Source: Brucella haematophila (GTDB lineage: Bacteria > Pseudomonadota > Alphaproteobacteria > Rhizobiales > Rhizobiaceae). Taken from it: a DNA stretch of 64,000 nt. How positions within the stretch are numbered: position 1 is the stretch's first letter; every line of letters begins with the position of its first letter. The stretch is from positions 164,600 to 228,599 of the forward strand of contig NZ_VCPE01000010.1 of the NCBI RefSeq assembly GCF_005938105.1, read 5' to 3'. The position numbers were made by a program, and so were the translations under genes. The notes below the pieces were generated by a model that searched no databases, had not been told where the DNA came from, and saw only the letters and a list, made by a program, of their open reading frames with translations. Shown here piece by piece: positions 12,359-60,509 of this stretch.

Positions 12359-13213
12359 ATGAGCAGCGGCACGCTGGGCAGGCGGGACGATATCCGGGCG
12401 TTCCTGAACCGTCGCCACGACAGCGTGCTGGTGGAGGTCACGGATGTGAAGGGCTCTGCGCCCCGCGATGCCGGGGCCTGGATGCTCGTCGCCCGCGACA
12501 TGATCTTCCGCACCATCGGTGGTGGACAGCTCGAATATATGGCCATCGACCATGCCCGGAAAATACTTGCTGGCGGTCGCGATTCACCGATGGACGTGCC
12601 TTTAGGGCCGGAGATCGGCCAATGCTGCGGTGGGCATGTGGCCTTGAATTTCAGACGCGTCAATCGCGGCCTTGCGGATGAACTGGTCAGCAAGGTCGAT
12701 GCGGAAATCGCCACCCGTCCACATGTCTATGTCTTTGGCGCAGGCCATGTCGGCGATGCGCTGGCCTATGCGCTGTCGCTGACGCCGGTACGGGTGGTGC
12801 TGGTGGATACGCGCGAGGCGGAGCTGATGGCTGTCGACGCGCCGGGTGTCGAAACCTGCCTCGCGGCGATGCCGGAACAGGTGGTGCGCTCCGCACCGCC
12901 GGGCAGTGCGTTCATCATCCTCACGCATGATCACGCGCTTGATTTTCTGATCGCCGCCGAGGCGCTGCAACGCCGCGATGCGATCTATGTCGGCATGATC
13001 GGCTCGAAGACCAAGAAGGCGACTTTCAAAAATTGGTTGAAACGCGAGTTCGGCAGCGATGATCTGTTTGAAGATCTGATCTGCCCGGTCGGCGGTGCTG
13101 TCGTGAAGGACAAACGCCCCGAAGTCATCGCAGCGCTTGCGGCGGCCGAAGTGCTGACCGCCGCATTATGCTCTGTTCGTGTTTTAGAATCTCAAGCATC
13201 AGATGCACGTTAG
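12359..13213 (+). CDS. xdhC: Xanthine dehydrogenase accessory protein XdhC
   Basis: This 284-residue cytoplasmic chaperone binds molybdenum cofactor and promotes its sulfuration and insertion into XdhB. The N-terminal XdhC/CoxI segment contains VEVTDVKGSAPRDAGAWM and the GGGQLEY loop, and GPEIGQCCGGHV lies near residue 83. The C-terminal Rossmann-like part begins with VYVFGAGHVGDALA near 123. It is the last gene of the uraH-xdhABC operon. The next gene is convergent and ends only 8 bases from the xdhC stop. Confidence 0.93.
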   Translation: MSSGTLGRRDDIRAFLNRRHDSVLVEVTDVKGSAPRDAGAWMLVARDMIFRTIGGGQLEYMAIDHARKILAGGRDSPMDVPLGPEIGQCCGGHVALNFRRVNRGLADELVSKVDAEIATRPHVYVFGAGHVGDALAYALSLTPVRVVLVDTREAELMAVDAPGVETCLAAMPEQVVRSAPPGSAFIILTHDHALDFLIAAEALQRRDAIYVGMIGSKTKKATFKNWLKREFGSDDLFEDLICPVGGAVVKDKRPEVIAALAAAEVLTAALCSVRVLESQASDAR

Positions 13214-13220
13214 CATTTGC

Positions 13221-14687
13221 TTAATGGCTCGTTGCAGTTGGTCGCACTTGTCGTAAGACACGCATCGAATACGGCCTGGAAAAATCTATGTTAATACCGT
13301 TATGGGCCTCTACCCGCTTTAGATCCCAATTTTGTACAAACCCTGAAAAATCAGCAATCCGATTATATGAGAGATTATCCCAATCCGATAGCCTCACCAT
13401 AGTTTCAGGCGCTGCCTGCACCTGTACTTCATGCCCATATATCCAAGACGGCAACGAGTAAGGATAGTCCTGTTCTATCGTTCGGCAATATTGCGCCGAG
13501 GATGTCAGGCTGATAATGCAGCTGACGGGAATTGTATTAGACAAAACTTGCATCGAATGCGGTCTCGAGAAATCGAGAACTTGGCCGTTATTTGCTTCTA
13601 CACTCTTAAGTTCATCGTTTAAGACAGTTCCGTGAAATTCCGCCAAACGGTTGTATGCGAGGTTCTCATAATCTGACAACATCACAGTAGTGTCCGGTCC
13701 GGCATCCACGTAAATCTCCTGTCCATAAAAATCCGGTGGTAATTCGCTTATCTTTTCTCCGATCGGCAAACAGTACTTCAAATCTGTATTCAAAGTTACG
13801 ATGCAGCCCTGTGGCTTCTCATTGGATAAAAAGCGAGCGTTCGGGTAAATTGACTTAATCCAATCCACGTATTTGGAAACACGCGCACCGGTAGAATTTT
13901 TTGATCCACCGCCGTTGGTGGTTGCAATGATGACCGGGTGGTTTCCACGAATTTGCCACCAAGCTGACCCACTATCTCCAGCTGCTACTCGTGCCCAAGA
14001 CGCTGAGGGCCCGTCTGGCTGGTATGATGCGCCAATCCCGTACTCTAGCTCAAAAATACTATCAATCCGACTGCGTGCATACAGTCGTCTTTCGCCTTTC
14101 TCCGGCCAGTAACCACTGCTTTGATTCAAGCCAACGCCCCATGTACCATAGCCAGCAAAGATGACATCGCGTCCTTCTTCGTCCAGCGCATCGTTCAAAA
14201 TTGGCCGTTCAATCGGCTGACCAGCGGCATCTACTATAGGATTTTTTGAAGGTAGCTTCAGGATAGCGATATCCGTTGATGCGCCACCCATGCCGGTTGG
14301 CACATTGACGCGTTGCGGCGGCACGTATGCTCGACCTTCGCCCGACGCAATAATGGTTCCATCCCACGCCCAAAAAAGACCTTCGTAGGGCGTGTCGGTT
14401 CCCTGATACCCGGAGCAATGGGCTGCAGTGAGGATATAACTCCAACCGGCCTCATCGCCCAACCAGGTTGCAGTGCATTCGCCAATGTTACCAACAGCAA
14501 GCCAAGGGGTTTCGTAACTAAACTCGCGTAGCTTATCATTGTGAGTTTTGAGACCGTCTTCTATATCGGCTGTATCTCCGCCATAGTATTTGAAAGTCGC
14601 TTCGTCAATAACCAAAGAATAAGCATTTGAGCATAAAAATAATAGAAGAGATGCAATCAAACCGGCGCATAATGAGCCTTTTTTCAT
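13221..14687 (-). CDS. Secreted trypsin-like serine protease with two C-terminal repeats
   Basis: This 488-residue exported S1-family protease has a signal peptide (LIASLLLFLCSNAYS, cleavage near residue 24). The triad is visible as His90 (LTAAHC), Asp139 (STDIAILKLP) and Ser239 (AAGDSGSAWW). Two homologous C-terminal modules, residues about 295-382 and 390-478, each start with a Cys-Ile segment. Each carries LSD(Y/W)(E/D)NL(A/S)YNR and ends DFSRP(H/Y)SM(Q/R)VL. Their spacing suggests beta-gamma-crystallin-like Greek keys, though this is inference. The gene is clearly AT-richer than the xdh and puuD genes around it, and it splits the purine cluster, which suggests acquisition by transfer. The target is unknown. 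Confidence 0.88.
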   Translation of the reverse strand: MKKGSLCAGLIASLLLFLCSNAYSLVIDEATFKYYGGDTADIEDGLKTHNDKLREFSYETPWLAVGNIGECTATWLGDEAGWSYILTAAHCSGYQGTDTPYEGLFWAWDGTIIASGEGRAYVPPQRVNVPTGMGGASTDIAILKLPSKNPIVDAAGQPIERPILNDALDEEGRDVIFAGYGTWGVGLNQSSGYWPEKGERRLYARSRIDSIFELEYGIGASYQPDGPSASWARVAAGDSGSAWWQIRGNHPVIIATTNGGGSKNSTGARVSKYVDWIKSIYPNARFLSNEKPQGCIVTLNTDLKYCLPIGEKISELPPDFYGQEIYVDAGPDTTVMLSDYENLAYNRLAEFHGTVLNDELKSVEANNGQVLDFSRPHSMQVLSNTIPVSCIISLTSSAQYCRTIEQDYPYSLPSWIYGHEVQVQAAPETMVRLSDWDNLSYNRIADFSGFVQNWDLKRVEAHNGINIDFSRPYSMRVLRQVRPTATSH

Positions 14688-14842
14688 TTTTTCCTCAAAA
14701 AAATATTTTAAATTTTTCTAGAATAGGTTACCGTTGATTTAATATTTAGAATTATCCTTTAAAAAAATTCAGAGTAGATATAGCGGTAATTTGTATTTAT
14801 TGGTAGCTGGAATGTTTACTCACTTGTAAGCCTGTTGATTAC

Positions 14843-15757
14843 TCAGGCCAGCGCTTCCCGTATCAGCCGCTGGCAGCGCTCCGTCATGAAATCGATGATC
14901 AGACGCACCTTCGGGTCCTGAAAACGCTTGTGCGGATAGATCGCCGCAAGCTGGATCGGTGCCGGCGGCGTGCTTTCGAGAAGCGGTATCAGCCGACCGT
15001 CGCGGAGATATTCCTTCACCTCGAACAGCGGCTTGTTGATGATGCCGCGCCCGCCCAGCGCCCATTGCGTCAATACGTCGCCATCATCGGAATCATAAGG
15101 CCCGGTTACTTCGAATTTGCGAAGACCTTCCGATGTTTGAAGCGACCAGTAATATTCCTTCGACCCCGGAAAACGCAGCAGCAAACAGTCATGCGTGTCG
15201 CCCAGAAGCTCTTCCGGCGATTGCGGAACTCCATGTTTTTCAAGATATTGCGGCGCAGCGCAGATTACGCGCTCACAATTCAGGATGCCGCGCATGCGCA
15301 AGTTGGAGTTTTCCAGAACCCCGAGTTTGAAGGCGACATCCACGCTTTCGCTCATAATGTCGATCTCGTGGTCAGATAGTCGCAGGCGCACTTCGATGTC
15401 CGGATATTTGTCGTGAAACTCCGGAATGCCCGATGCGATGAGCCTGCGGCCAAGCCCCAAAGGCGCGGTAATGCGAATCGATCCCTTGGGATTTTTCGCA
15501 AGTTCCGCGACGGCTGCTTCCGCCTCATCTACCGCTTCAAGGATTTTCAACGCGCCGTCATAGAATATGCGGCCATGCTCGGTCGGGGTCAGCTTGCGCG
15601 TGGTACGGTTGAAGAGCCGGACGCCAAGATGCTTCTCCAACTCCTTGATTCGATTGCTCGCAACCGCCGGAGAGGCGCGCTGGTCGCGCCCGGCGGCAGA
15701 AAGATTTCCCAATTCGACAACGCGCACGAAAACGCGCAGATTATCAAGATAAGACAT
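14843..15757 (-). CDS. LysR family transcriptional regulator
   Basis: This 304-residue regulator has an N-terminal winged helix-turn-helix (YLDNLRVFVRVVELGNLSAAGR...RLFNRTTRKLTPTEHG) and a LysR substrate-binding domain from about residue 90. ATG 15757 is chosen because GGAGGGG lies just upstream and because LysR proteins begin within a few residues of the HTH. The longer frame adds 62 residues of no family likeness. It is divergent from puuD across 124 bases, so control of puuD-guaD in response to a purine-derived ligand is likely but inferred. The close resemblance to the CrgA-like branch (RASPAVASNRIKELE) says little about ligand. Confidence 0.88.
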   Translation of the reverse strand: MSYLDNLRVFVRVVELGNLSAAGRDQRASPAVASNRIKELEKHLGVRLFNRTTRKLTPTEHGRIFYDGALKILEAVDEAEAAVAELAKNPKGSIRITAPLGLGRRLIASGIPEFHDKYPDIEVRLRLSDHEIDIMSESVDVAFKLGVLENSNLRMRGILNCERVICAAPQYLEKHGVPQSPEELLGDTHDCLLLRFPGSKEYYWSLQTSEGLRKFEVTGPYDSDDGDVLTQWALGGRGIINKPLFEVKEYLRDGRLIPLLESTPPAPIQLAAIYPHKRFQDPKVRLIIDFMTERCQRLIREALA

Positions 15758-49209: not shown

Positions 49210-49695
49210 CTATTCAGCGGGAACGGCGAATGGTCCGAGCGGCTCGACCCCCTTGATATAGAGTGTCACCTTCTGGTCTTTCGGTGGTGCCGGAAAGACG
49301 CCATGCCAGACGCCGACCACAGGCCCTTTGCCGAACAGCGAAACGGAGGTGGGCGTGAGCGGCTTGCCCTCAGAGTCCTTCAACAGCAGATACTTCTTGT
49401 CGCCGGCGAGAAGGTAATAATCGTTCTCGTACTCCTTGTCCGACATGGAGCTATAAAGCGTCGAGGAAACGTTGTCGCCTTCCGTGGCATTCTTGAAACG
49501 AACCTTGACGGTCAGCTTGTCGCCGTCGCGTATGGCGCCGCTGACCTCGGCGGTAACCTGACCGCTGCTGTGATAGCCGGTTGCGAGCGGCTGGCCTGCT
49601 GCATCTTCGGCCTGCGCTGCAAAGGGCAGGGCGCTTGCAGACAGCAAGACGGTGGCGAGAAGTGTACGTGAGAGAAACGCCATGAGTATCGCTTT
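49210..49695 (-). CDS. Secreted hypothetical protein paired with the OmpA-domain protein
   Basis: This 161-residue protein has a strong signal peptide (TLLATVLLSASALPFAAQA|ED). The mature part is rich in beta-strand (TVKVRFKN, YYLLAGDKKYLLLKD, VTLYIKG), like a small immunoglobulin-type domain. Met at 49695 or 49683 could be the start. The longer frame is rejected because the signal peptide begins here. The function is unknown. The operon with the OmpA-like gene suggests a shared envelope role. Confidence 0.72.
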   Translation of the reverse strand, partial: KAILMAFLSRTLLATVLLSASALPFAAQAEDAAGQPLATGYHSSGQVTAEVSGAIRDGDKLTVKVRFKNATEGDNVSSTLYSSMSDKEYENDYYLLAGDKKYLLLKDSEGKPLTPTSVSLFGKGPVVGVWHGVFPAPPKDQKVTLYIKGVEPLGPFAVPAE

Positions 49696-49986
49696 CATTT
49701 GTTGGACAGCCTGGAGCATCATGCAGTCGGACGAAATCACCCGGCGTTGCATTCATGCGGTGAGAACAAATAAGGGAGCAGTTCTGGCGGTATCATGAGA
49801 GCAGGTTTGATCGGATTATGCTCTAAAAGGTGAACCACTCCGGATGCGGGGCTGAAACCTAACAGTCTGAAAACAAAAATTCTATAAAGTTTCAAAAAAC
49901 CTACAATCTTTTACTTCAAACTTCTTTTCCGTTCGTTACATGACGGATTGGGCCGGTGTTTCAGGTATTTATTTTCGCGCCGATCT

Positions 49987-50025
49987 AGAGCGGTTCCGGT
50001 TAAAACGGAATCGTGGAACCGCTCT
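49987..50025. repeat. Inverted repeat AGAGCGGTTCC / GGAACCGCTCT
   Basis: The 11-bp arms are perfect and separated by 17 bases. Elements of this look are scattered in Rhizobiales intergenic DNA. No second copy was noticed in this window. Confidence 0.7.
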
Positions 50026-50040
50026 ATCTATTTGTTTCTA

Positions 50041-50089
50041 CGCATTATCCTACGGCAAACCGCTACGCACTTTTGCTGGAAATGCTCTC
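50041..50089 (-). repeat. Dispersed repeat (GCATTTCCAGCAAAAGTGCG type), inverted copy
   Basis: On the minus strand it reads AGCATTTCCAGCAAAAGTGCG-like sequence, then TAGCGGTTTGCCG and GGATAATGCG. It is the same element found inside hyi and after the SleB gene. Confidence 0.8.
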
Positions 50090-50184
50090 ATCCATTGGCA
50101 TCAAAACACACATTAACGGGTTGAGCTTGGTCGTCGCGGCTGCTAATCCGCCCGCTCCCCGATTTTCTCCCAAAAGGTGCAGTG

Positions 50185-51501
50185 ATGACGAAGGCTGTTG
50201 AGAGCCCATTTGATGGCGTGACATTAGGCATCGATTTCGGCACCACCAACACGGTTCTGTCCGTTGCCAGCCCCGATGGTTCGGCGGCGGTGCTGAGCGT
50301 CGTCAAGGATGGCGCTGACGTGACCGGCTATCGCTCGATCCTCTGTTTCTGGCAGGATCGCGAAACCGGCGAACGCACGGTGGAAAGCGGCCCATGGGCG
50401 ATGGATGCTTTTGTCAACGCACCGCATTCGACGCGCATGCTGCAATCCTTCAAGACCTTCGCGGCGTCCAAATCCTTCACCGACACGCCGGTCTTCGGCA
50501 AGCGCTTCAAGTTCGAGGATATTCTGACGACCTTTCTCGAAACGGTTGCGGCGCGCCTCGGTGACCGGCTGCCGCCCAAGGGCAATCGCGTGGTGATCGG
50601 GCGTCCGGTTATTTTCGCAGGCGCTTCGCCGGACGAGGAGCTGGCGATGCAGCGCTATGAAAAGGCGTTTCGCGCCTTTGGCTTCACCGACATTCACTAT
50701 GTCTATGAACCGGTGGCGGCGGCCTATTTCTATGCGCAGGAATTGAAGGCGGATTCAACCGTTCTGGTGGCCGACTTTGGCGGCGGCACGAGCGACTTTT
50801 CCATCGTGCGTTTCGAAGTGGGTAAGGGTGGTCTTTCCTTCACGCCGATGAGCCAGACAGGTCTTGGCATTGCAGGCGATACATTCGACTATCGCATCAT
50901 CGACAATGCGGTTTCACCACTGCTCGGCAAGGGCACGGAATACAAATCCTTCGGCAAGCGCCTGACCATGCCGAACCATTATTACGCAAATTTCGCGCGC
51001 TGGAACACGCTGTTCCTGATGAACTCGCCCGCGACGATCCGCGACCTGACCGAACTTGCCAAGCAGGCGGTCGAGCCGGAAGCGCTGGAGCATTTCATCA
51101 ATCTCATCGAGAATGATTACGGCTACGAAATCTACCGCGCCGTTTCGAACCTCAAGGTCCGGCTGTCATCCGAACGCATGGCGGAGCTGCATTTCAAGGC
51201 GGATGATTTCGAAATCCGCTCGGATATCACCCGCAACGATTTCGAAAACTGGATCGCCGAGGATGTGCGCCAGATCGAGCAGTCGGTGGAAGAAGCGGTC
51301 GAAAAGGCCGGCATTCAATCCGGCAATATCGACCGTGTGTTTCTGACCGGCGGCACGTCCTTCGTGCCGGTGATCCGCACTGTGTTCGAAAGCCGCTTCC
51401 CCGATGCGGCAGTGACCAGCTCCAACCAGTTCGATTCCATTGCCACCGGTCTGGCGCTGATCGGTCAGGATGCGGATATCGACCGCTGGTCCGTGAAGTG
51501 A
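50185..51501 (+). CDS. yegD: Hsp70-family protein, YegD-like
   Basis: This 438-residue protein has the Hsp70/actin ATPase domain: phosphate-1 LGIDFGTTNTVLSV, phosphate-2 VLVADFGGGTSDFSIV, adenosine motif FLTGGTSFVPVIR. It lacks the beta-sandwich and lid of DnaK. Single-domain YegD proteins are of unsettled function and lack obvious DnaJ or GrpE partners here. ATG 50185 is chosen, with AAGGTG about 6 bases before it, rather than the overlapping GTG. Confidence 0.9.
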   Translation: MTKAVESPFDGVTLGIDFGTTNTVLSVASPDGSAAVLSVVKDGADVTGYRSILCFWQDRETGERTVESGPWAMDAFVNAPHSTRMLQSFKTFAASKSFTDTPVFGKRFKFEDILTTFLETVAARLGDRLPPKGNRVVIGRPVIFAGASPDEELAMQRYEKAFRAFGFTDIHYVYEPVAAAYFYAQELKADSTVLVADFGGGTSDFSIVRFEVGKGGLSFTPMSQTGLGIAGDTFDYRIIDNAVSPLLGKGTEYKSFGKRLTMPNHYYANFARWNTLFLMNSPATIRDLTELAKQAVEPEALEHFINLIENDYGYEIYRAVSNLKVRLSSERMAELHFKADDFEIRSDITRNDFENWIAEDVRQIEQSVEEAVEKAGIQSGNIDRVFLTGGTSFVPVIRTVFESRFPDAAVTSSNQFDSIATGLALIGQDADIDRWSVK

Positions 51502-51533
51502 TTGCTGAAGGTGCGTTGTCCTGACGGGTATCG

Positions 51534-51959
51534 TCAGGACGCTGTCGCCGTATCGGCAAAGCAACTGGCAACCTTGTCATTCGCACCAAGCTTCTTCGCC
51601 CATTTGACCAGCTCCGGCACCTCACTTCTGTCAGCCATGCCGCCCCAAACGTCTTTGAGTTTCGGCGTCTTGCCTGAAAGTTTGAAGAAGAAATAGCCGG
51701 GGTCCGCGACTGGAACATCGGCATAAACGACGGCCCAGTCGCCGCTCTTCATGAATGTCTCGATGGTGATGGCGGTTGGTTTCACTTTCTTGCGAAAGCT
51801 CTTGGCAATCAGGGCTGTGTAATCGGCCCGCTGTTGCTTGGTCAAACTGGCGGTAACCCCGTCGCAAGGCGACTTGGCGTCGGCGCTTCCCGCGGATGCC
51901 AGAACCGCCATTGCAATGAAACCACCTATACAGGCCGACTTGAAAACCGCTGTCATCAT
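51534..51959 (-). CDS. Small secreted hypothetical protein
   Basis: This 141-residue exported protein has a signal peptide (ACIGGFIAMAVLASAGSADA|KS) and two cysteines in the mature part (SPCDG and ASCFAD), likely disulfide-bonded. Segments such as GDWAVVYADVPVADPGYFFFK recall a single-domain periplasmic fold. I do not recognise the family. The L,D-transpeptidase gene lies upstream on the same strand with a 65-base gap. Confidence 0.72.
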   Translation of the reverse strand: MMTAVFKSACIGGFIAMAVLASAGSADAKSPCDGVTASLTKQQRADYTALIAKSFRKKVKPTAITIETFMKSGDWAVVYADVPVADPGYFFFKLSGKTPKLKDVWGGMADRSEVPELVKWAKKLGANDKVASCFADTATAS

Positions 51960-52024
51960 TCCCCTCCAAACGTGTGTGATCCCGTTGGGTGAGCATAGTC
52001 GGATTATGTGGAAGCGATAGAGCG

Positions 52025-52567
52025 TTACGGCAGGATTTCGATCGGCGTGCCGTTTGGCACTTTTGCCCAGATGTCGCGCATTTCCGTGTCAGTGACGGCA
52101 ATGCAGCCATCGGTCCAGTCCCACAAATGGTGCATGGATGCCAGCCAGCCCCAGCCGTTCGGCAGGCCATGGATCATGATATTGCCGCCCGGCGCATAAC
52201 CGCCCGCCGCGGCTGCCCGCTGATCCTCTTCGTTCGGATAGGAAATATGCAGGCTCAGATGCGCCATCGAACGCGGATTGCGCCAGTCGATGACATATTG
52301 CCCTTCCGGTGTCTTCTCGTCACCCTCGCGCTGCTTGTGGCCGCCATCGCCATTGCTGCCAAGCGATATGCGATAGGTGCCAATCGTCTGCCCCTGGCGC
52401 AGCAAGGTCATCTGGCGGCTGGCCTTTTCAACCCGGATCGCGTCGGCCTGCTGTTCTGCGGGCGCGGCGACGGGAGGCTCGACCAGACTGACCCGCGCCA
52501 TGACCTTGGTATAGCCAAACAACGCGACAGCAATGAGCACGACGGCAGCGAGAGTTTTCTTGATCAT
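52025..52567 (-). CDS. L,D-transpeptidase family protein, intact copy
   Basis: This 180-residue protein has an N-terminal membrane or signal segment (TLAAVVLIAVALFGYTKV) and a short YkuD domain. The catalytic motif is HGLPNG (His133) with DWTDGCIAVTD (Cys155). The N-terminal part of the domain contains EKASRQMTLLRQG and GDEKTPEGQYVIDWRNP. It probably crosslinks or tailors peptidoglycan. ATG 52567 fits the signal peptide, and the longer frame is rejected. The 5' 356 bases plus 75 upstream are duplicated at 54613-55043 across an AT-rich insertion. Confidence 0.9.
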   Translation of the reverse strand: MIKKTLAAVVLIAVALFGYTKVMARVSLVEPPVAAPAEQQADAIRVEKASRQMTLLRQGQTIGTYRISLGSNGDGGHKQREGDEKTPEGQYVIDWRNPRSMAHLSLHISYPNEEDQRAAAAGGYAPGGNIMIHGLPNGWGWLASMHHLWDWTDGCIAVTDTEMRDIWAKVPNGTPIEILP

Positions 52568-52642
52568 GATGTCCACTCTGACCCGAATATGCGCAAATGA
52601 AGAGATGAAGTGCTTTTCACAGATGATTGGGGCTTTCACAAG
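52212..52642. repeat. Left arm of a 431-bp direct repeat flanking an AT-rich island
   Basis: The arm runs from GCTGCCCGCTGATCC inside the L,D-transpeptidase gene to GGGGCTTTCACAAG upstream of it. Its partner at 54613-55043 has the same length and orientation, with only scattered differences. Confidence 0.93.
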
Positions 52643-52809
52643 GTCGGCATCGGAACCCATCTTCGAAAGCCTTGGGACTGTTGTCACACCAATTTGATTT
52701 TAGAAAGGACGAACTGATCCAAAAGTAACAGGATCAGAAACTGCGCAGGCGGTGCTACAAATGTAGTTGCGGGGGACGATGTACATGAAGTGACTGGAGG
52801 GCCGGCGAA

Positions 52810-53556
52810 ATGGAGATAGGTGACGTTATCCGTGTAGTACGAAGTATACTTGCAGCGCCGGTAGCGCGAGCCATGGGGCAGCATTCGCGAGAGCCAACTC
52901 TTCTTGGCGCGACGAACCGAGGGCGCATTGGGTATAGTCGTCTGGACGACAGCTTTGAAGAAATAGCGGGCGATACGATAAGAGAAAATTGTCATCCTGC
53001 GGATATGGCACCCAGCCATCCTGGTGCCATCCATCCGTCGGCATCAAAAATAATCCGCCTTGGAGGTGGGGTAAAAGGAAAACATACGGTATTAATTTTA
53101 AAAGAATTCATGGAAACAGGTGAGGATTTTGTCGTAATACACAGTAATAAAATTGGATACGTAAAGTATGATAATAAAAAAATGAGTTTAACAAGCCTGT
53201 TTGATAATCTTTATAAAGATGGATATTTAAAAGCGGATACGAATGAGAGGCTAAATATTGTTGCAAATAATATAAACCGCATACTCGTTAAAGGTCGTAA
53301 ATCAGATGTGCCGGGAGCAATGTATCCTCTTGGCGAGGCGGTGTCGGGGCATTTAAATGTTCCTGTGTCTACATACGAGCCTATTGGTGGAGTTTTGTAT
53401 GATACCGCCAGTATAGTGAGGGGTAAATCCAGTCTTGTTGTTGCTGGCGTCGCGCGTGCTACTGGTCAGAAGACGTCCTCGTTATATCCGGCGACTGTTC
53501 ATTCATACGATGCCGCTGGGTATTCCGGCTTGTTTGGGGCGCCTTGGGAAATGTGA
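52810..53556 (+). CDS. Unrecognised island protein A
   Basis: This 248-residue protein has no family I can name. ATG 52810 has a strong GGAGGG 8 bases upstream. The first 80 residues are GC-normal and polar. From codon 85 the DNA becomes strikingly AT-rich (many AAA, AAT, ATA codons), unlike any neighbour. No signal peptide or membrane helix is evident. Residues 107-206 share a motif series with island protein B: FVVIHSN, then LNIVANN at 148, STYEPIGGVLYDT at 187, VRGK at 203. The layout (strand-His, strand-x-A-N, then a Gly-rich strand) resembles a degenerate caspase-like fold of the C80/Stv type. That is a guess. Foreign origin is likely. Confidence 0.7.
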   Translation: MEIGDVIRVVRSILAAPVARAMGQHSREPTLLGATNRGRIGYSRLDDSFEEIAGDTIRENCHPADMAPSHPGAIHPSASKIIRLGGGVKGKHTVLILKEFMETGEDFVVIHSNKIGYVKYDNKKMSLTSLFDNLYKDGYLKADTNERLNIVANNINRILVKGRKSDVPGAMYPLGEAVSGHLNVPVSTYEPIGGVLYDTASIVRGKSSLVVAGVARATGQKTSSLYPATVHSYDAAGYSGLFGAPWEM

Positions 53557-53590
53557 GTTCCTTAAAGACCATTAAAAAAGGATCGTCGAG

Positions 53591-53713
53591 ATGATGAAAG
53601 ATGAAACTCATTTATTGGGCCATGAATTCACAGTGCGGGCCACTATGGTTGGTCCGTCGAGCCCGAGGCGAAATTATAGTAATGGAAACTGGAGTATTGA
53701 GCCGTGCCATTAA
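53591..53713 (+). CDS. Small ORF of 40 residues coupled to island gene B
   Basis: The frame starts ATGATG with AAGGATCG a little upstream and ends in TAA. It overlaps the GTG start of the next gene by 10 bases. The peptide contains HLLGHEFTVRATMVG and is unrecognised. It sits 34 bases after gene A, so A, this ORF and B read as one operon. Tight overlap favours it being translated, but it could be a remnant. Confidence 0.4.
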   Translation: MMKDETHLLGHEFTVRATMVGPSSPRRNYSNGNWSIEPCH

Positions 53714-54432
53714 GAGGGTCCCTTCCTGGGCTGGGTAGTGAATTTGAGTCAATTGCAACCGTAGTGGCTAATACTGTTAGTAATGATTCCGCAAGTCTTA
53801 ACCTTGTTCGTGCTGCAATGGCTCCAGAGTCCATGAGTACTAACCTGGATGCTAACGAGGAACCGTTTACGGGCTTTCTACAACTCGGCCCTCGTCGTAC
53901 AAATGCTGGAAGAACGAAAGTTACAGGCTTTCCTATGCGTCAGTCTCGATTCGCTGCCAGTCCTCTAACAGACGAAGCGCGATTAAACGTTACTGGCGGT
54001 ATCACGAATAATTTTGGCGGAAAAAAAGAGCAGGCCATTGTCTTTCCAGGTTTGGAGCATCTTCCCGGAGGGCGAGTTTCGAAGGAAAAATATATAAATA
54101 AAGTACTGGGACAAGAGCTCAGAGGAAATATAATAGAAAAAAATGGACCGGGTCCTCTTCATATCGTTGCCAATGGCTTCGAAAAAATGAAAGTAAGAGG
54201 AATTCCAGCTGGCCAATATTATTCAAATAGATTTGGCAGGCGAGTAATAACCTATGGTGATGGAGGTGAGCTAATTTACAATACGCATGATGTATTGATG
54301 GGTAGGAATGTTCAATTTATGGAAAGAGATATTATGAAGTATAGTACTGGAGAACGGACTTTTAACCATGCTCCCGCTTCCCATCATATATATGAAGTAC
54401 CAGACCCTCCAGGGCGCTGCAGGATAATATGA
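53704..54432 (+). CDS. Unrecognised island protein B, paralogue of A
   Basis: This 242-residue protein of unknown function starts at GTG, overlapping the preceding small ORF. The N-terminal half is Ser/Asn-rich and low in hydrophobic stretches. The C-terminal half has strands AIVFPGLEH near 111, LHIVANG at 152, ITYGDGGELIYNT at 182 and LMGR at 198, in the same order as in protein A. There is no signal peptide or membrane helix. Codon use is AT-rich like A and unlike the flanks. The frame ends abruptly at TGA 54430-54432, while a good coding frame continues in the +1 register to 54583, so B may be frameshifted. Confidence 0.68.
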   Translation: MPLRGSLPGLGSEFESIATVVANTVSNDSASLNLVRAAMAPESMSTNLDANEEPFTGFLQLGPRRTNAGRTKVTGFPMRQSRFAASPLTDEARLNVTGGITNNFGGKKEQAIVFPGLEHLPGGRVSKEKYINKVLGQELRGNIIEKNGPGPLHIVANGFEKMKVRGIPAGQYYSNRFGRRVITYGDGGELIYNTHDVLMGRNVQFMERDIMKYSTGERTFNHAPASHHIYEVPDPPGRCRII

Positions 54433-54583
54433 TCTTGCTATTCCGTGTATTGATGGCTTGCCGAGCCGTGTTTCGGAGTCAGTTCAGGCTGAATATTTTG
54501 CTGAGAGCGCCGGTGGGAAGTCAATAGTCTTTCAATTATATGAATCCCATGGAATTTTTCGAGAATTGCTGTGCGATTTCTAA
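54428..54583 (+). pseudogene. Possible frameshifted C-terminal continuation of island gene B
   Basis: In the +1 register directly at the end of B an open frame of 51 codons runs DLAIPCIDGLPSRVSES and on to YESHGIFRELLCDF before TAA. It has no convincing start of its own. Removing one base near 54430 would join it to B, giving a protein of about 292 residues. It could also be an untranslated remnant. Confidence 0.45.
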
Positions 54584-54602
54584 AAGTCACTTTCAAGGAA
54601 GC

Positions 54603-54968
54603 CTAGTTGATCGCTGCCCGCTGATCCTTTTCGTTCGGATAGGAAATATGCAGGCTCAGATGCGCCATCGAACGCGGATTGCGCCAGTCGATGACATATT
54701 GCCCTTCCGGTGTCTTCTCGTCTCCCTCGCGCTGCTTGTGGCCGCCATCGCCATTGCTGCCAAGCGATATGCGATAGGTGCCAATCGTCTGGCCCTGGCG
54801 CAGCAGGGTCATCTGGCGACTGGCCTTTTCAACCCGGATCGCGTCGGCCTGTTGTTCTGCGGGCGCGGCGACGGGAGGCTCGACCAGGCTGACCCGCGCC
54901 ATGACCTTGGTATAGCCAAACAAAGCAATAGCAATGAGCACGATGGCAGCGAGAGTTTTCTTGATCAT
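54603..54968 (-). pseudogene. Truncated duplicate of the L,D-transpeptidase
   Basis: The first 119 or so residues match the intact protein encoded at 52025-52567 with a few substitutions (Ile for Val in the membrane segment, Lys for Glu near 113). The copy then ends in a foreign Ile-Asn-stop at the island junction. Both His133 and Cys155 of the active site are lost, so any product would be inactive. Confidence 0.9.
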
Positions 54969-55043
54969 GATGTCCGCTCTGATCGGAATATACGCAAATG
55001 AAGAGATGAAGTGCTTTTCACAGATGATTGGGGCTTTCACAAG
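54613..55043. repeat. Right arm of the 431-bp direct repeat
   Basis: This is the same 431-bp segment as 52212-52642, in the same orientation. Its left end abuts the AT-rich island. Its right end runs into the tenA promoter region, which is probably the ancestral neighbour. Confidence 0.93.
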
Positions 55044-55116
55044 TTCATTGTGAACTGTGGTTGACGCCGATAAGGTCCGGCTTCCGATATACGCGCCATG
55101 GAGCAACGTCTTGTCT

Positions 55117-55785
55117 ATGCTGAACAATGTCGAAGCCGCGTCCGAACGATTTACCGATCATTTGCGGCAGAGCACGGAACCTTTCTGGACACAGGCAGTG
55201 ACGCATCGTCTGGTCCGGGAAATCTATGCTGGAACGGCATCGAAAGACGTGATGACACGCTATCTGGTTCAGGATCATCGTTTTATCGATTGTTTCCTGT
55301 CTTTGCTGGGCGGTGCGCTCGTCAATTGCGACAGGATGGACGCGAAGCTGACCTTGGGTCGCTTCATCGGCATGATCAGCAATGACGAGAACTCCTATTT
55401 CGAGCGCGCTTTCGAAACACTGAATGTTGATGATGCGACACGCTTCGATATGCCCGATGCGACAGCGACGACCGGGTTCAAGGCGCTGATGCTGGAAGCG
55501 GCAAAGTCCGGTTCCTATGCGGCTTGCCTGTCTGTGCTGGCCGTTGCCGAGTGGCTTTATCTCGACTGGGCAGAGAAGGCGCCGAAACCTCTGCCGAAGG
55601 ATTTCGTTTTCGCCGAATGGATTATCCTGCACGACAATCCGTATTTTGTGGAATTCGTCGGCTTTCTGCGTTCAGAACTCGACCGTGTCGGCCCGGCCGC
55701 TGCATCAAAGTGCGGGGATTTCTTCCGACGGGCAGTGGAACTGGAGAAAGCCTTTTTCGACGCGGCCTATGAAGCTGAAACCTAA
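55117..55785 (+). CDS. tenA: TenA/THI-4 family protein (thiaminase II / aminopyrimidine aminohydrolase-like)
   Basis: This 222-residue all-helical protein has the TenA pattern: FTDHLRQSTEPFWTQAVTHRLVREIYAGT at the start, YLVQDHRFIDCFLSLLGGAL, Cys-containing YAACLSVLAVAEWLYLDWA, and the late EWIILHDNPYFVEFVGFLRSELDR. TenA enzymes salvage the thiamine pyrimidine. Some related proteins have other roles. ATG 55117 is preferred on family length. GTG 55057 would add 20 residues. No TPP riboswitch was recognised upstream. Its stop overlaps the convergent next gene. Confidence 0.87.
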   Translation: MLNNVEAASERFTDHLRQSTEPFWTQAVTHRLVREIYAGTASKDVMTRYLVQDHRFIDCFLSLLGGALVNCDRMDAKLTLGRFIGMISNDENSYFERAFETLNVDDATRFDMPDATATTGFKALMLEAAKSGSYAACLSVLAVAEWLYLDWAEKAPKPLPKDFVFAEWIILHDNPYFVEFVGFLRSELDRVGPAAASKCGDFFRRAVELEKAFFDAAYEAET

Positions 55786-56216
55786 TCAGCTGCCGCAGCC
55801 TTCAGGCATTCTTCGATTGTCGTCTTACAGATCGGGGTTTGCGCCTGTTCCTGTCTGTTGGCGAGCCAATGCTCGTAGACGATGCGAAACTCGACATCCT
55901 TGTAAGCATAGGTTCTGGTGCGTGACGCGATGCTGCTTTTCTCAAGTGCTTCGCCGGTTATCACCATATGCAGTGACAGCCGCTCGAAGACCCATGGCTT
56001 CGCGCCCTTCGGGTGTTCGAAAACCTCGACATGATAATAGGGGTCGCCAACCGCTTCATCCGGCGTGACGTGTACTGCCGCCCAGCGTGTGATTTTCGGC
56101 GTATCCGCGAGAATGACCACGCTTTCGCGTTGAAGCTCTGCCTTGGCCGGGACCGGCAATAGCGTGAGCATGGGGAGGAGGGTCGCAAATATCTGTCCGG
56201 GCTTCCAGTTTCGCAT
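55782..56216 (-). CDS. Secreted hypothetical protein
   Basis: This 144-residue exported protein has a signal peptide ending LPVPAKA|EL. The mature part has alternating strands (VVILADTPKITRWAAVHV, YYHVEVFEHP, LSLHMVITGEAL, VEFRIVYEHWL) and a C-terminal Cys pair (PICKTTIEECLKAA). It may belong to a Rhizobiales domain of unknown function, but I cannot name it with certainty. It is convergent with tenA. The 288-base region upstream shared with the SleB gene holds no gene. Confidence 0.7.
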   Translation of the reverse strand: MRNWKPGQIFATLLPMLTLLPVPAKAELQRESVVILADTPKITRWAAVHVTPDEAVGDPYYHVEVFEHPKGAKPWVFERLSLHMVITGEALEKSSIASRTRTYAYKDVEFRIVYEHWLANRQEQAQTPICKTTIEECLKAAAAD

Positions 56217-56516
56217 CGCGGCTCCTTATCGGTATTCTGCGTGTAGAATTTTGACGAAGTAAGTTTCGTCCCGTCAGGTCGGCTTTTGCCCTTTTGGCCC
56301 GCTCGCTCCAAAAACGCAATGAAAACAAAAGCCGGGCTGATAGCGTTAATTCTAAATTAATCAATCTTTTCAAATAGTAAACGCAAGGCCGTTAACGATA
56401 CAGCAAGGTTAATACTCCATTATCAGCGTTGTTAAGCATATCCCGAAATGCGCGGAAACGCGCCTCGGACACGATGTGCGCGAGAACAACAGAAGTCTGT
56501 GTGAGTGGAGTGTGCG

Positions 56517-57806
56517 GTGCGTCTTGTGTCGATACGAGCGCTGTTTGGTCGTCGGAAGGCCGTCGCTGAGCCGGTATGGCATTATCCTGTCACGGGCTAT
56601 TGCCCGGAAGAGGGTCGCTATTATGCCGTGCGCGCGAAACCGCGTCATATCGCCCGCAAGCCGCAGCGCCTGATCCCGCTGGCTCTCACCGCCATCGTCT
56701 ATCTCTTCAATTCCAATGCGATTGCCTTTCAGGATATGGCGAGCCTCGTGCCGTCCGCCGATCTTGGCACACATCGCTGGACGGCGTTCGTCGCCAAGGC
56801 GCCGGTCGGCTCCGTGCATCAGGCGGAAATGCCGTTTGTTGATGCAACGACGGTCACCGGCAGCATTGCGACCAACGGTATTGAAGTGCCGGGCATCGGC
56901 CGCGTGGCGCTTTCGGGCGGCAAGAAGACTGCGAAGCTCGGCCCGGATGATCCCAATCCGGATGAAAACCGCATCAACCGCGCTGACAAGACGGGCCGTC
57001 TTGTCTCGGTCAAGCCAAAGGCGCCCGCCAAGGCGTTCACGGCGGGCAGCATGTTCGACAAGATCAGCATGATCACCCGCCCGCCGGAAAAGACCGACGC
57101 GAAGATGGCTTTCTCCAACAAGCTCGAGGGCAAGGAAATCGGCATCACCATGGCCTTCCATGCCGTGAAGCCGCCAAAGCCGAGAGCAGAAATGCCGGTG
57201 CAACTGGCCAAGCTGATCACCAACGACCAGCCGGATGTGCTGGCGCTGGGTTATGCGCCTTCTACCCCCGATTATGGAAAGACCTCTCCCTTTGAGAGTA
57301 TCCTGAAACCGGACCCGAGCGCGGGGCGGTTTGTCCCGCCAATTGGCGAAGAAGATCATGGATGGGCGGCAACTCCGTTGCCGCCTTCGGCATTTAGTAC
57401 AAGCGAACAGAAGTGCCTTGCCGAGGCGATCTATTTCGAAGCGCGCGGCGAGACGGTCAAGGGGCAGGTGGCTGTGGCGCAAGTGGTGCTCAACCGCGTG
57501 CGCAACCCGGCCTATCCGAACACGATCTGCGGTGCGGTCTATCAGAATCGCGACTGGCTCAATGCCTGCCAGTTTTCCTTTGCATGCGACGGTCAGAAGC
57601 ACCGTGTGACCGAGATGCCGCAATGGCGCATGGCGCAGCAGGTGGCAAAGACGGTATCGTCCGGCCAGATCTGGCTGCCGGAAGTGGGTTCAGCCACACA
57701 TTATCATGCGACCTATGTGAAGCCCTTCTGGGCGCCGACGATGAAGAAGCTGACCACGATCGGCCTTCATGTGTTCTACCGCACCTATGGCGGCGGCTGG
57801 AGCTGA
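56517..57806 (+). CDS. SleB-type cell wall hydrolase (Hydrolase_2 domain)
   Basis: This 429-residue protein has an N-terminal cytoplasmic stretch, a membrane or signal segment (RLIPLALTAIVYLFNSNAIA near residue 52), a long low-complexity linker, and a C-terminal SleB domain from about residue 300. The domain has CLAEAIYFEARGE (catalytic Glu), VAQVVLNRVRNP, CGAVYQN, CQFSFACDG and ATHYHATYVKPFW. This is a lytic transglycosylase-like peptidoglycan hydrolase known in alphaproteobacteria. GTG 56517 is preferred because GGAG lies 6 bases before it. GTG 56505 is the alternative. Confidence 0.85.
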   Translation: MRLVSIRALFGRRKAVAEPVWHYPVTGYCPEEGRYYAVRAKPRHIARKPQRLIPLALTAIVYLFNSNAIAFQDMASLVPSADLGTHRWTAFVAKAPVGSVHQAEMPFVDATTVTGSIATNGIEVPGIGRVALSGGKKTAKLGPDDPNPDENRINRADKTGRLVSVKPKAPAKAFTAGSMFDKISMITRPPEKTDAKMAFSNKLEGKEIGITMAFHAVKPPKPRAEMPVQLAKLITNDQPDVLALGYAPSTPDYGKTSPFESILKPDPSAGRFVPPIGEEDHGWAATPLPPSAFSTSEQKCLAEAIYFEARGETVKGQVAVAQVVLNRVRNPAYPNTICGAVYQNRDWLNACQFSFACDGQKHRVTEMPQWRMAQQVAKTVSSGQIWLPEVGSATHYHATYVKPFWAPTMKKLTTIGLHVFYRTYGGGWS

Positions 57807-57811
57807 TCAAG

Positions 57812-57900
57812 CATTTCCAGCAAAAGTGCGAAGCGGTTTTGCGTAGGACAATGCGTAGGAAAAAAGCATTTTCAGCAAAAGTGCGAAGCGTCTACGCGGG
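57812..57900 (+). repeat. Two tandem copies of the dispersed GCATTTCCAGCAAAAGTGCG repeat
   Basis: The first copy (57812-57855) is near-identical to those in hyi and at 50.06 kb. The second (57864-57900) is shorter and diverged (TCTACGCG end). A further degenerate relative may lie at 57968-58000. The array begins 5 bases after the SleB stop. Confidence 0.8.
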
Positions 57901-58223
57901 GAAATCAGTCCATTGGACTGATTCCTGATCCCGCTGCGATGCGCAGGATAATGTGTAGGAAACAGCATTTCCCGAGTAAAGCGCGTAGCGCATCCGCGAA
58001 GGCCAGCCTGTCGGGCTGTCGGCTGATCCCGCTGCGCTGACCCTTGCGCAATAATAATAACCCTCATCATCAAGATAATTATGGATCGCAAGTTTAAGCT
58101 CATACTTTCTGCATTAAATATTAGTAAATTTAAAATTAAAATTGTGATATAGACATAGTTTTTTAAATAAATATATGATCGGAATCAGATGATGGAGAGT
58201 TTTATTTTATAATGTGAGGGATT
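57901..58223. other. Intergenic region upstream of the autotransporter
   Basis: No gene is supported. The left half continues degenerate repeat material (GCGGGG, CTGATCCCGCTGCG twice). The right half from 58080 is very AT-rich and must carry the autotransporter promoter. The ribosome site is likely TGAGGG before the ATG at 58224. Confidence 0.6.
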
Positions 58224-60509
58224 ATGAATATAATTAATAAGCAATTGGCTTATTTGCTTATTGGTTCATCTGCTTTATTAGGCTGCGCACATGTTGCAAT
58301 GGCCCAGCAGCTGGAACTGGGGTCGGCGCCAACTTTGGTTGAAGGTGCGGATTGGCATAGCTCTGCCACCTATGGCATTTCTGCTGATGGCAACGTGATT
58401 GTCGGCGAGGTAAACGGGGGGGTCTATGATGTCCCTGCGGTCTGGAGCAGCACAACAGGCGCGCTGACCGTCCTGAAGACTTTATCTGGAGGTGAGACCA
58501 AAAACTCTCACGCCATGTATGTCTCTGCTGATGGTGGTGTTATTGTTGGTGTTTCGAGCGGGGCTGATGGGAACGGCCACGCTGTGGCTTGGCTGAATGG
58601 ATCGTCGATAGCGACTGACCTCGGTGCTATTGATGCCATTAGTAGTGCCTATCCCAATGCGGTTTCCGCTGACGGAAAGGTGATTGTCGGATATTCGGCC
58701 ATAAATGGTGCTCAAAACAGCAATCATGCGGTTGTTTGGTCGCTTGCTAACGGTGCCGCGACGATTCACAATCTTGGGACTTTGGGGGGAAATGGCTCCG
58801 CTGCTGCTGCGGTTTCCGCTGACGGAAAGGTGATTGTCGGTTCGGCAGACCTGACACCCACTGAGCGCCATGCAGCGGCATGGTATAATAAAGGAAGTTC
58901 TGCGGTCGATCTTGGGACTTTGGGCGGCAGTAACTCCAGCGCGTCTGGTCTGTCTGCAGATGGAACGATAATCGTCGGGCAGGCAGACCTGGTCGGCGGA
59001 GATAAACACGCTGTAGCATGGTACGGCCAAGGCGCGAATCCGACGGATCTCGGCGTTTTGAATGGCGATACGACTTCGTTAGCGCATACCGTGTCCACTG
59101 ATGGCTCTGTCATCATCGGAAATTCGATGAGTACGGTAGCCGATAGGCACGCCGTAGCATGGTATAATCAAGGGACAACACCGACCGATCTTGGCACTTT
59201 GGGTGGTGCGACTTCCGACACAGTTGCCGTGTCAGCAAATGGCTCTGTTATTGTGGGGACGGCGGCGAATGCGGACAGTAAAAACCATGCTGTGGTTTGG
59301 ATTGGTTCGGGAGCATCGCCGACGGATCTCGGAACATTGGGCGGTGTGAGTTCCTTGACCACTGGTGTTTCTGCTGATGGGACTGTGATTGTTGGTCGTT
59401 CGACGGGAGCAGATAATAAGTTGCATGCCGCGCTCTGGAAACTCGTGACGGTAACGCCACCCGATCCTGAGCCAGAGCTGACACCAGCGCTAAATCCTGA
59501 GCCGAATGTAAACCCAACGCCGACCCCCGAGCCGACGCCAACGCCAACGCCTGTGGGCATTGATGTGACCAATACGGTTGATACGGTGGCCGCACTTGCG
59601 CACGACACCTTCGCCGTCATGGGATCGCAAGGCGCTATCGTCGGTCGCCTGATGGGCGGCAGCAGCAGCGGTCAGGGCTTCAATGATTTCTCCGGTGCTG
59701 GCCTCGGAATGGCGAAGGCGGGCGAAAGCTGGTACGGCATCTATTCCGATGTCGGTCGCGCTGGCGACAGCAAGGATGTGCTGGGCTGGATGACGCTGGG
59801 CCATGCCTTCACCGATAATTTTTCGGCCGGCGCAACCATCGCGCACACGTTCTGGCAGGACATGCCGGACAATTACGATCACACCAACAACAATCTTGGC
59901 GGTGGCATCTACGCGCAATGGAAAGACACCACCCAGAGCGGAACCTGGTATATGCGCGGTTCTGCTGCAATCAATCGCTATGATGTTGAGCGGACACGAC
60001 AGGTTCTGGGCTATACCGAACCCGGCACCGGCGACAGCACCATTAATGGCTGGGGCGTTCAGCTGGAAGCAGGCCAGTCCTTCGATCTCGGCAACAAATC
60101 GTCCTTCGGCTATTATGGCGGCTTGAGCTATACCGATCTGAAAATGGACGGCTATACGGAAACCAATGCCTATTTCCCGTTCACCTATTCGGATGTGAAG
60201 TCGCAGCGCACGACGGCCTATTTCGGCCTCAACTATGGTATGGCGCTGACCGATAAGGTCAATTGGTCCGTGAATGCGGAAATCGAGCAAGATCTTTCGC
60301 ACAAGGACCCGAGCGTGATCGCAAGCGCTGATTATATCGGCGCATATGAGTTCGGCTCGGATACGGCACATACCCGCGGCAGTCTGTCGACCACGGTTTC
60401 CTATGCGTTGAGCGATGCCGTCAGCATCGGTGTAACGCCTTATGTGAATCGCACGCTGGACAAGGATACCGCTTTCGGGGCCATTATTGGTCTTTCCGGC
60501 AAGTTCTAA
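58224..60509 (+). CDS. Autotransporter with HAF-type repeats and C-terminal beta-barrel
   Basis: This 761-residue type V secreted protein has a signal peptide (LLIGSSALLGCAHVAMA|QQ). A passenger of about eight repeats of roughly 45 residues carries the (V/L)SADG.VIVG and HAVAWY...DLGTLGG motifs of the HAF family, consistent with a beta-propeller or solenoid. A Pro-rich linker near residue 415-445 (PEPTPTPTP) is followed by an autotransporter beta-barrel of about 280 residues ending in the outer-membrane signature GLSGKF. It is likely surface-exposed and adhesin-like, though no ligand can be inferred. Repeat units are partly identical at the DNA level, so copy number could vary. Confidence 0.9.
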   Translation: MNIINKQLAYLLIGSSALLGCAHVAMAQQLELGSAPTLVEGADWHSSATYGISADGNVIVGEVNGGVYDVPAVWSSTTGALTVLKTLSGGETKNSHAMYVSADGGVIVGVSSGADGNGHAVAWLNGSSIATDLGAIDAISSAYPNAVSADGKVIVGYSAINGAQNSNHAVVWSLANGAATIHNLGTLGGNGSAAAAVSADGKVIVGSADLTPTERHAAAWYNKGSSAVDLGTLGGSNSSASGLSADGTIIVGQADLVGGDKHAVAWYGQGANPTDLGVLNGDTTSLAHTVSTDGSVIIGNSMSTVADRHAVAWYNQGTTPTDLGTLGGATSDTVAVSANGSVIVGTAANADSKNHAVVWIGSGASPTDLGTLGGVSSLTTGVSADGTVIVGRSTGADNKLHAALWKLVTVTPPDPEPELTPALNPEPNVNPTPTPEPTPTPTPVGIDVTNTVDTVAALAHDTFAVMGSQGAIVGRLMGGSSSGQGFNDFSGAGLGMAKAGESWYGIYSDVGRAGDSKDVLGWMTLGHAFTDNFSAGATIAHTFWQDMPDNYDHTNNNLGGGIYAQWKDTTQSGTWYMRGSAAINRYDVERTRQVLGYTEPGTGDSTINGWGVQLEAGQSFDLGNKSSFGYYGGLSYTDLKMDGYTETNAYFPFTYSDVKSQRTTAYFGLNYGMALTDKVNWSVNAEIEQDLSHKDPSVIASADYIGAYEFGSDTAHTRGSLSTTVSYALSDAVSIGVTPYVNRTLDKDTAFGAIIGLSGKF

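Follow-up and report, generated by a model that had tools for sequence, protein, structure and literature searches.

An acquired cassette in Brucella haematophila with a diverged gene pair from an orphan protein family that may be caspase-like

The island and its two genes

We analyzed a stretch of 64,000 nucleotides from Brucella haematophila (contig NZ_VCPE01000010.1, positions 164,600 to 228,599; the whole stretch is called the window), which holds an A+T-rich island encoding two proteins, A and B. The island is a real acquired cassette. It carries two diverged paralogues of an orphan family that is possibly caspase-like, and an apparently intact relative, protein G, is encoded at the same site in another species of the genus. 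The coordinates of all features are collected in Table 1.

The island differs from its surroundings in composition. Its G+C content is 44.9% over 52688-54602, compared to 52 to 62% in the nearby 500-base bins on both sides. An initial annotation, made from the letters of the window, had placed the start of the A+T-rich island at 52643, in agreement with the left junction (52642/52643) obtained from related genomes. It had also proposed foreign codon use for both genes, and this was confirmed: the G+C content at third codon positions (GC3) is 0.38 in A and 0.32 in B versus 0.63 to 0.74 in six genes of the window, and on a codon table built from these six genes A and B score -0.43 and -0.53, respectively.

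A and B are confirmed as open reading frames (ORFs) on one strand, and shuffled sequence almost never yields such a pair. When the island was shuffled 1,000 times with its dinucleotides preserved, the longest ORF reached at least 242 amino acids (aa) in 1 shuffle, and a second ORF never exceeded 141 aa. The 40-codon ORF that lies between them, which had been described as a coupled small ORF, is not supported as a gene. All that speaks for it is where it lies and a ribosome site that looks plausible by eye; its length is within chance (the longest ORF per island shuffle averages 98 aa), and it shows no likeness to A, B, or G.

The paralogy proposed for A and B was borne out for their C-terminal parts but not for their N-terminal parts. 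In a single BLASTP comparison, the two proteins align over 89 columns with an E value of 5e-6, and none of 2,000 whole-protein shuffles reaches the real score. The core of A (residues 91 to 248) matches the core of B (residues 93 to 242) with a z score of 10.3, and no score as high was obtained in 3,000 shuffles. Conversely, the N-terminal stretches of about 90 residues score at the shuffle mean, which 1,413 of 3,000 shuffles reach, so that the paralogy is confined to the C-terminal core.

Table 1. Features of the island and its flanks (window positions)
Feature	Positions	Strand	Basis
Full-length L,D-transpeptidase-like gene (LDT), left flank	52025..52603	-	NCBIfam NF040599, E=9.4e-10, 38 bits
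Left junction	52629..52642		Sequence common to window, G030, and G016 stops at 52642
A+T-rich acquired island	52643..54612		Absent in G016 (LDT-TenA-DUF); BLASTN junctions and sequence
Protein A, 248 aa	52810..53556	+	ORF; similarity to B and G; AlphaFold2 (AF2) model of the core, 84-248
ORF of 40 codons between A and B	53591..53713	+	ORF only; gene status not supported
Protein B, 242 aa, GTG start	53704..54432	+	ORF; BLASTP with A; core shuffles
Island right end	54574..54617		44 bp, 31 identical to G030 L039:7200-7243
Truncated second LDT copy: 5' part and upstream region	54613..55043	-	3' part missing
TenA-like gene, right flank in window	55057..55785	+	NCBIfam TIGR04306, E=1.6e-11, 44 bits
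144-aa protein, "DUF"	55782..56216	-	No NCBIfam match; right neighbour of cassette in G030

A third member and the core that it shares with A and B

We searched A and B, each on its own, against their own genome and 99 relatives, of which 34 belong to the same genus, at an E value of 0.1 or below. Seven relatives were matched by A and seven by B, all weakly, and 17 such loci were read on both strands (L009 and L052 gave no frame). A single relative was matched by both proteins in one frame, with E values of 0.084 and 0.074. This is Rhizobiales bacterium isolate AFS001111 (UEGR01000020.1; here G030), another species of the same genus, whose 261-aa gene G (L054:10001-10783) sits at the same chromosomal place as the island of the window. 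The core of G scores z 11.6 with that of A and z 8.0 with that of B, with 0 of 3,000 shuffles reaching either score, and identity across the A, B, and G alignments is 20 to 27%. We accepted G as a relative because it is matched by both A and B and lies at the cassette site with the same junction; as a gene picked by its position, it requires no correction for search size. We read A and B as divergent representatives of a protein family not described before, with G as its third member at the same cassette site. The N-terminus of G bears a marginal likeness to that of A (30 of 3,000 shuffles reach the score), and that of B is unlike both.

Several other candidates were rejected, some of them with better scores than G. 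A matched a long frame in G047 (E 0.0027), which we take to be an exopolyphosphatase and which B does not resemble. B matched one shared protein, presumably aminotransferase-like, in G047, G051, G008, and G096 (E 0.0025 to 0.05), which A does not resemble. The 51 residues that follow B (54428-54580) were considered as the remnant of a third member and discarded, since 1,354 of 3,000 shuffles reach their score against G. In addition, residues 149 to 209 of B (54148-54330), the part around its Asn157, resemble a conserved stretch of the aminotransferase-like protein in four relatives (loci L011-L014; z 6.2 to 8.2); we take this likeness as chance, because neither A nor G resembles L011.

None of the three proteins had a significant match in Pfam, NCBIfam, PHROG, or PADLOC, and the best match in these family libraries was that of A with a PADLOC model over 47 residues (E 0.014, 12.5 bits). 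The initial annotation had named C80 and Stv, and neither family name could be kept. Peptidase_C80 (PF11713) has no match to A, B, or G, and Stv (PF21527) has none to these proteins or in their own genome. The Stv model matches in 2 of 385 genomes of the class, and hhalign against two Stv-model matches gave a probability of 0.2%. In 249 genomes of the order, C80 gave no match, with a control that was equally silent. A profile search of 394 genomes of the family, including the own genome, found no credible relative besides the window (three N-terminal matches with E 0.002 to 0.006 were judged to be noise), and in 397 genomes of the order, again including the own genome, the window alone was matched. 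G030 appears in neither match list and was therefore evidently not among the genomes drawn. No relative was found in plasmids by DNA or protein, in phages by protein, or in viral contigs with the A2, G, or A queries (B was not scanned alone). Among genome contigs, the B query found no relative, and the G query returned G itself. Since G itself surfaced at an E value of about 0.08, the sensitivity of the homologue searches is limited. We found no title on such a family in this genus, in limited literature listings that are no proof of absence.

Clan CD peptidases have a sheet of six strands in the order 2-1-3-4-5-6. The catalytic His ends strand 3 and is followed by a Gly, and the catalytic Cys ends strand 4. 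In G, His138-Gly139 and C180, the sole Cys among its 261 residues, fall in the columns of this dyad, and on this reading G would probably be a cysteine peptidase. In the window proteins, the Cys column holds Asn in both cases, Asn153 in A and Asn157 in B. The His column holds His111-Ser112 in A. In B it holds Pro121-Gly122, within a gapped stretch, with His119 two residues off, and B probably lacks the dyad His. With Asn in the nucleophile column, both A and B are probably dead peptidases.

The AF2 model of the A core has a predicted local distance difference test (pLDDT) score of 61, with values of 62 to 82 in a block over model residues 21 to 110. In order along the chain, a strand at model residues 22 to 28 ends in H28 (His111 of A). 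It is followed by short strands at 34-37 and 40-43 and a helix at 44-53, and a strand at 65-69 stops just before N70 (Asn153 of A). In the model of G, which is poor (pLDDT 42), a strand at 132-138 ends at H138 and another, at 175-179, ends just before C180. Among the 50 matches listed in a fold search of PDB, caspase-1 ranks 2, 4, and 16 (E 0.086, 0.22, and 0.95) and MALT1 ranks 37. In BFVD, a pithovirus caspase ranks 1 (E 0.031) and an ascovirus caspase ranks 5 (E 0.94). Sequence searches of PDB yielded no credible match; those to a phosphorylase (E 0.013) and to gp120 (E 0.058) were taken as chance. The caspase-like fold with a lost Cys that had been suspected thus gains moderate support, in that G keeps His-Gly and Cys and the strand ends of the A core fit, but not a significant fold match. 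The A/B/G core may well have a caspase-like fold, which is supported, not proven; fold and function are read from three sequences and middling models.

The junctions and the variable locus

The gene order at the site is Hsp70-like, p141, LDT, cassette, TenA (where present), DUF, and SleB. An LDT relative is present in 17 of the 35 genomes of the genus, and we read the LDT locus in all 17, first in the window and ten further loci (tblastn, E<=1e-3) and then in six more (E<=1e-2); L041 of G014, which is without LDT, was also read. A gene of the A/B/G type was detected by tblastn in 2 of the 17 loci and TenA in 6. The cassette of G030 carries a single family member. In the six loci L067-L072, the gene content between LDT and SleB varies by species, with or without TenA and with other small ORFs, and four of them have p141 on the opposite side of LDT. 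Since the content changes from species to species, this interval is a general turnover site.

The window, G030, and G016 agree in sequence up to window base 52642, immediately after TTTCACAAG, and the island of the window and the G cassette begin from the identical left junction base. Past the junction, G016 and the right-hand copy of the window continue into TTCATTGTGAA, which forms the opposite arm of an inverted repeat. This TTCACAA/TTGTGAA repeat lies upstream of LDT at the exact junction (52629-52642, 55030-55055); it is whole in the right-hand copy and split by the island in the left-hand copy. At the right end, the similarity to G030 yields a local alignment score of 18, compared to a maximum of 15 in 2,000 mononucleotide shuffles, and the matching segment of G030 extends from the end of G into that of the DUF gene.

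The island had been described as lying between two copies of a chromosomal segment. A duplication does flank it, but the right-hand LDT copy is partial. BLASTN aligns 52212-52645 with 54613-55046 (434 bp, 96.3%), and a second comparison gives 431 bp with ends at 52642 and 55043; the BLASTN alignment extends 3 bases beyond the junction through chance identity. Acquisition of the cassette, as initially proposed, is supported. The island would be a cassette acquired at the variable LDT-to-SleB locus of this Rhizobiaceae genus, and we infer as the simplest history a donor arranged LDT-cassette-DUF, like G030. On the left side, homologous pairing and recombination in LDT may have joined the incoming DNA, and on the right side short-homology joining would have left the truncated LDT copy.

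The matches that name the flanking genes fall below the cut-off in the case of LDT (38 bits; cut-off of NF040599, 365) and reach 44 bits for the TenA-like gene (cut-off of TIGR04306, 130). tblastn finds no counterpart of the TenA-like gene in the G030 locus. Rfam gave no match in 49500-58500, promoter and terminator counts are no higher than in shuffles, and no tRNA genes were found in the window. A short repeat in inverted orientation (56 bp, 89%; 50031-50086 and 57810-57890) brackets the variable locus; it has a second tandem copy at 57864-57890, and copies also occur in a related genome (L043, 2878-2970). Beyond it, 58224-60509 encodes a 761-aa autotransporter-looking protein with repeated units of the SADGxVIVG type, which we take to be HAF-like. 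The GC3 of this gene is 0.57, and the G+C content just upstream is low (0.44 at 58001-58500). A further low-G+C stretch lies at 13001-15000 (0.42 to 0.54); among the matches listed, rhizobial plasmids cover it only from about 14840 onward.

Possible functions and relation to known systems

Our preferred reading, to which we assign a probability of roughly 0.45, is that of a fast-diverging cassette family of caspase-like proteins in which G is of the active type and A and B are probably dead and would have a binding role. Its members would combine a variable N-terminus of about 90 residues with a probably caspase-like (clan CD) core about 150 residues long. Any action of A and B would consist in binding a peptide or protein, and within a conflict or effector cassette they might serve as an adaptor, a decoy, or an inhibitor. 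The narrower proposal that they are inhibitors or decoys against an active caspase-like enzyme of type G in sister strains is a long shot, as is the bacterial parallel of dominant-negative pseudo-caspases that it would imply, with live and dead forms alternating in one cassette.

Two results weigh against the preferred reading. As a control, we scored other matches of the genome search that are very probably due to chance, and these reach z 6.2 to 11.4 with 0 of 1,500 shuffles (for A, loci L004, L006, and L008; for B, loci L011-L014). The scores of L005 and L015 are z 0.3 and 3.8. Chance matches picked from 99 genomes thus score equally high, and the scores alone do not prove G. Moreover, the caspase matches in the fold searches are weak, nonsignificant, and mixed with unrelated folds. 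The control lowered our confidence in the preferred reading from 0.5 to its present value and slightly raised that in a different fold.

Such a different fold is a tenable alternative. In that case the core would adopt some other alpha/beta fold, for example a deaminase-like or PIWI-like one, and G would have its His and Cys by coincidence. Against a deaminase, which requires CxxC, stand the single Cys of G and the lack of HxE in A and B. In addition, G has its sole Cys directly behind the strand, in the place expected for clan CD, which argues against this alternative.

It is rather doubtful that A and B are decaying leftovers of an active ancestor that was duplicated, lost its catalytic residues, and has since drifted without function. 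The Cys is missing from both proteins, and the locus turns over often, with 15 of the 17 LDT-bearing genomes having no such gene by tblastn, as decay would predict. Nevertheless, ORFs of 248 and 242 codons are still open, which shuffles almost never give, the same Asn occupies the same column in A and B, and the two have diverged widely without acquiring stops.

Delivery of A and B into competitor or host cells as effectors or toxins, by way of the variable N-terminus, is in our view unlikely. A shared core with a variable N-terminus, the foreign composition, and the hotspot location would suit such proteins, and caspase-like domains are described as toxins and as processing domains of polymorphic toxins (PMC3482391), where some caspase repeats are also described as noncatalytic. 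Against delivery, neither of two secretion markers was detected above its cut-off in the host or in G030. For HrcV, a marker of the type III secretion system (T3SS), their best matches are about 575 bits, below the cut-off of 692, and for TssC (TIGR03355), a marker of the type VI secretion system, they have no match. HrcV is above the cut-off in 6 of the 35 genus genomes (loci L059-L062), so that the nonflagellar T3SS is patchy in the genus, and TssC matches in 3 of the 35. Furthermore, no secretion or immunity gene was recognized in the adjoining genes. The effector/immunity or toxin/antitoxin pair proposed in the initial annotation, which two neighboring genes on the same strand would suit, is very improbable, because A and B are of one family, both without the nucleophile, and G stands alone in the sister-species cassette, so that members do not always occur in pairs.

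If the reading of A, B, and G as caspase-like proteins is true, one cassette site holds a catalytically intact or a dead caspase-like protein in two species, a natural comparison for whether dead bacterial peptidases serve as decoys or inhibitors. Current family models would then also be shown to miss some caspase-like domains, as none of the three proteins has a significant match in four libraries.

With clan CD (caspases C14 and MARTX-CPD C80), the family differs in having no sequence-level match and no significant fold match, and A and B are without the nucleophile. It would agree in the order of His-Gly and Cys, each at the end of one of two consecutive core strands that a short hairpin separates (138/139 and 180 in G; the model of the A core). 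Stv and Peptidase_C80 are caspase-like bacterial domains, and A, B, and G differ from them in being unmatched by their Pfam models. The Tox-Caspase domains of polymorphic toxins (PMC3482391) are unlike A, B, and G, which are stand-alone proteins of 242 to 261 aa with no recognized trafficking domain or immunity gene. The caspase repeats described in that source include some without catalytic residues, which may bind peptides. The likeness to Tox-Caspase lies in a caspase-like domain carried in changing cassettes, some copies of which are noncatalytic.
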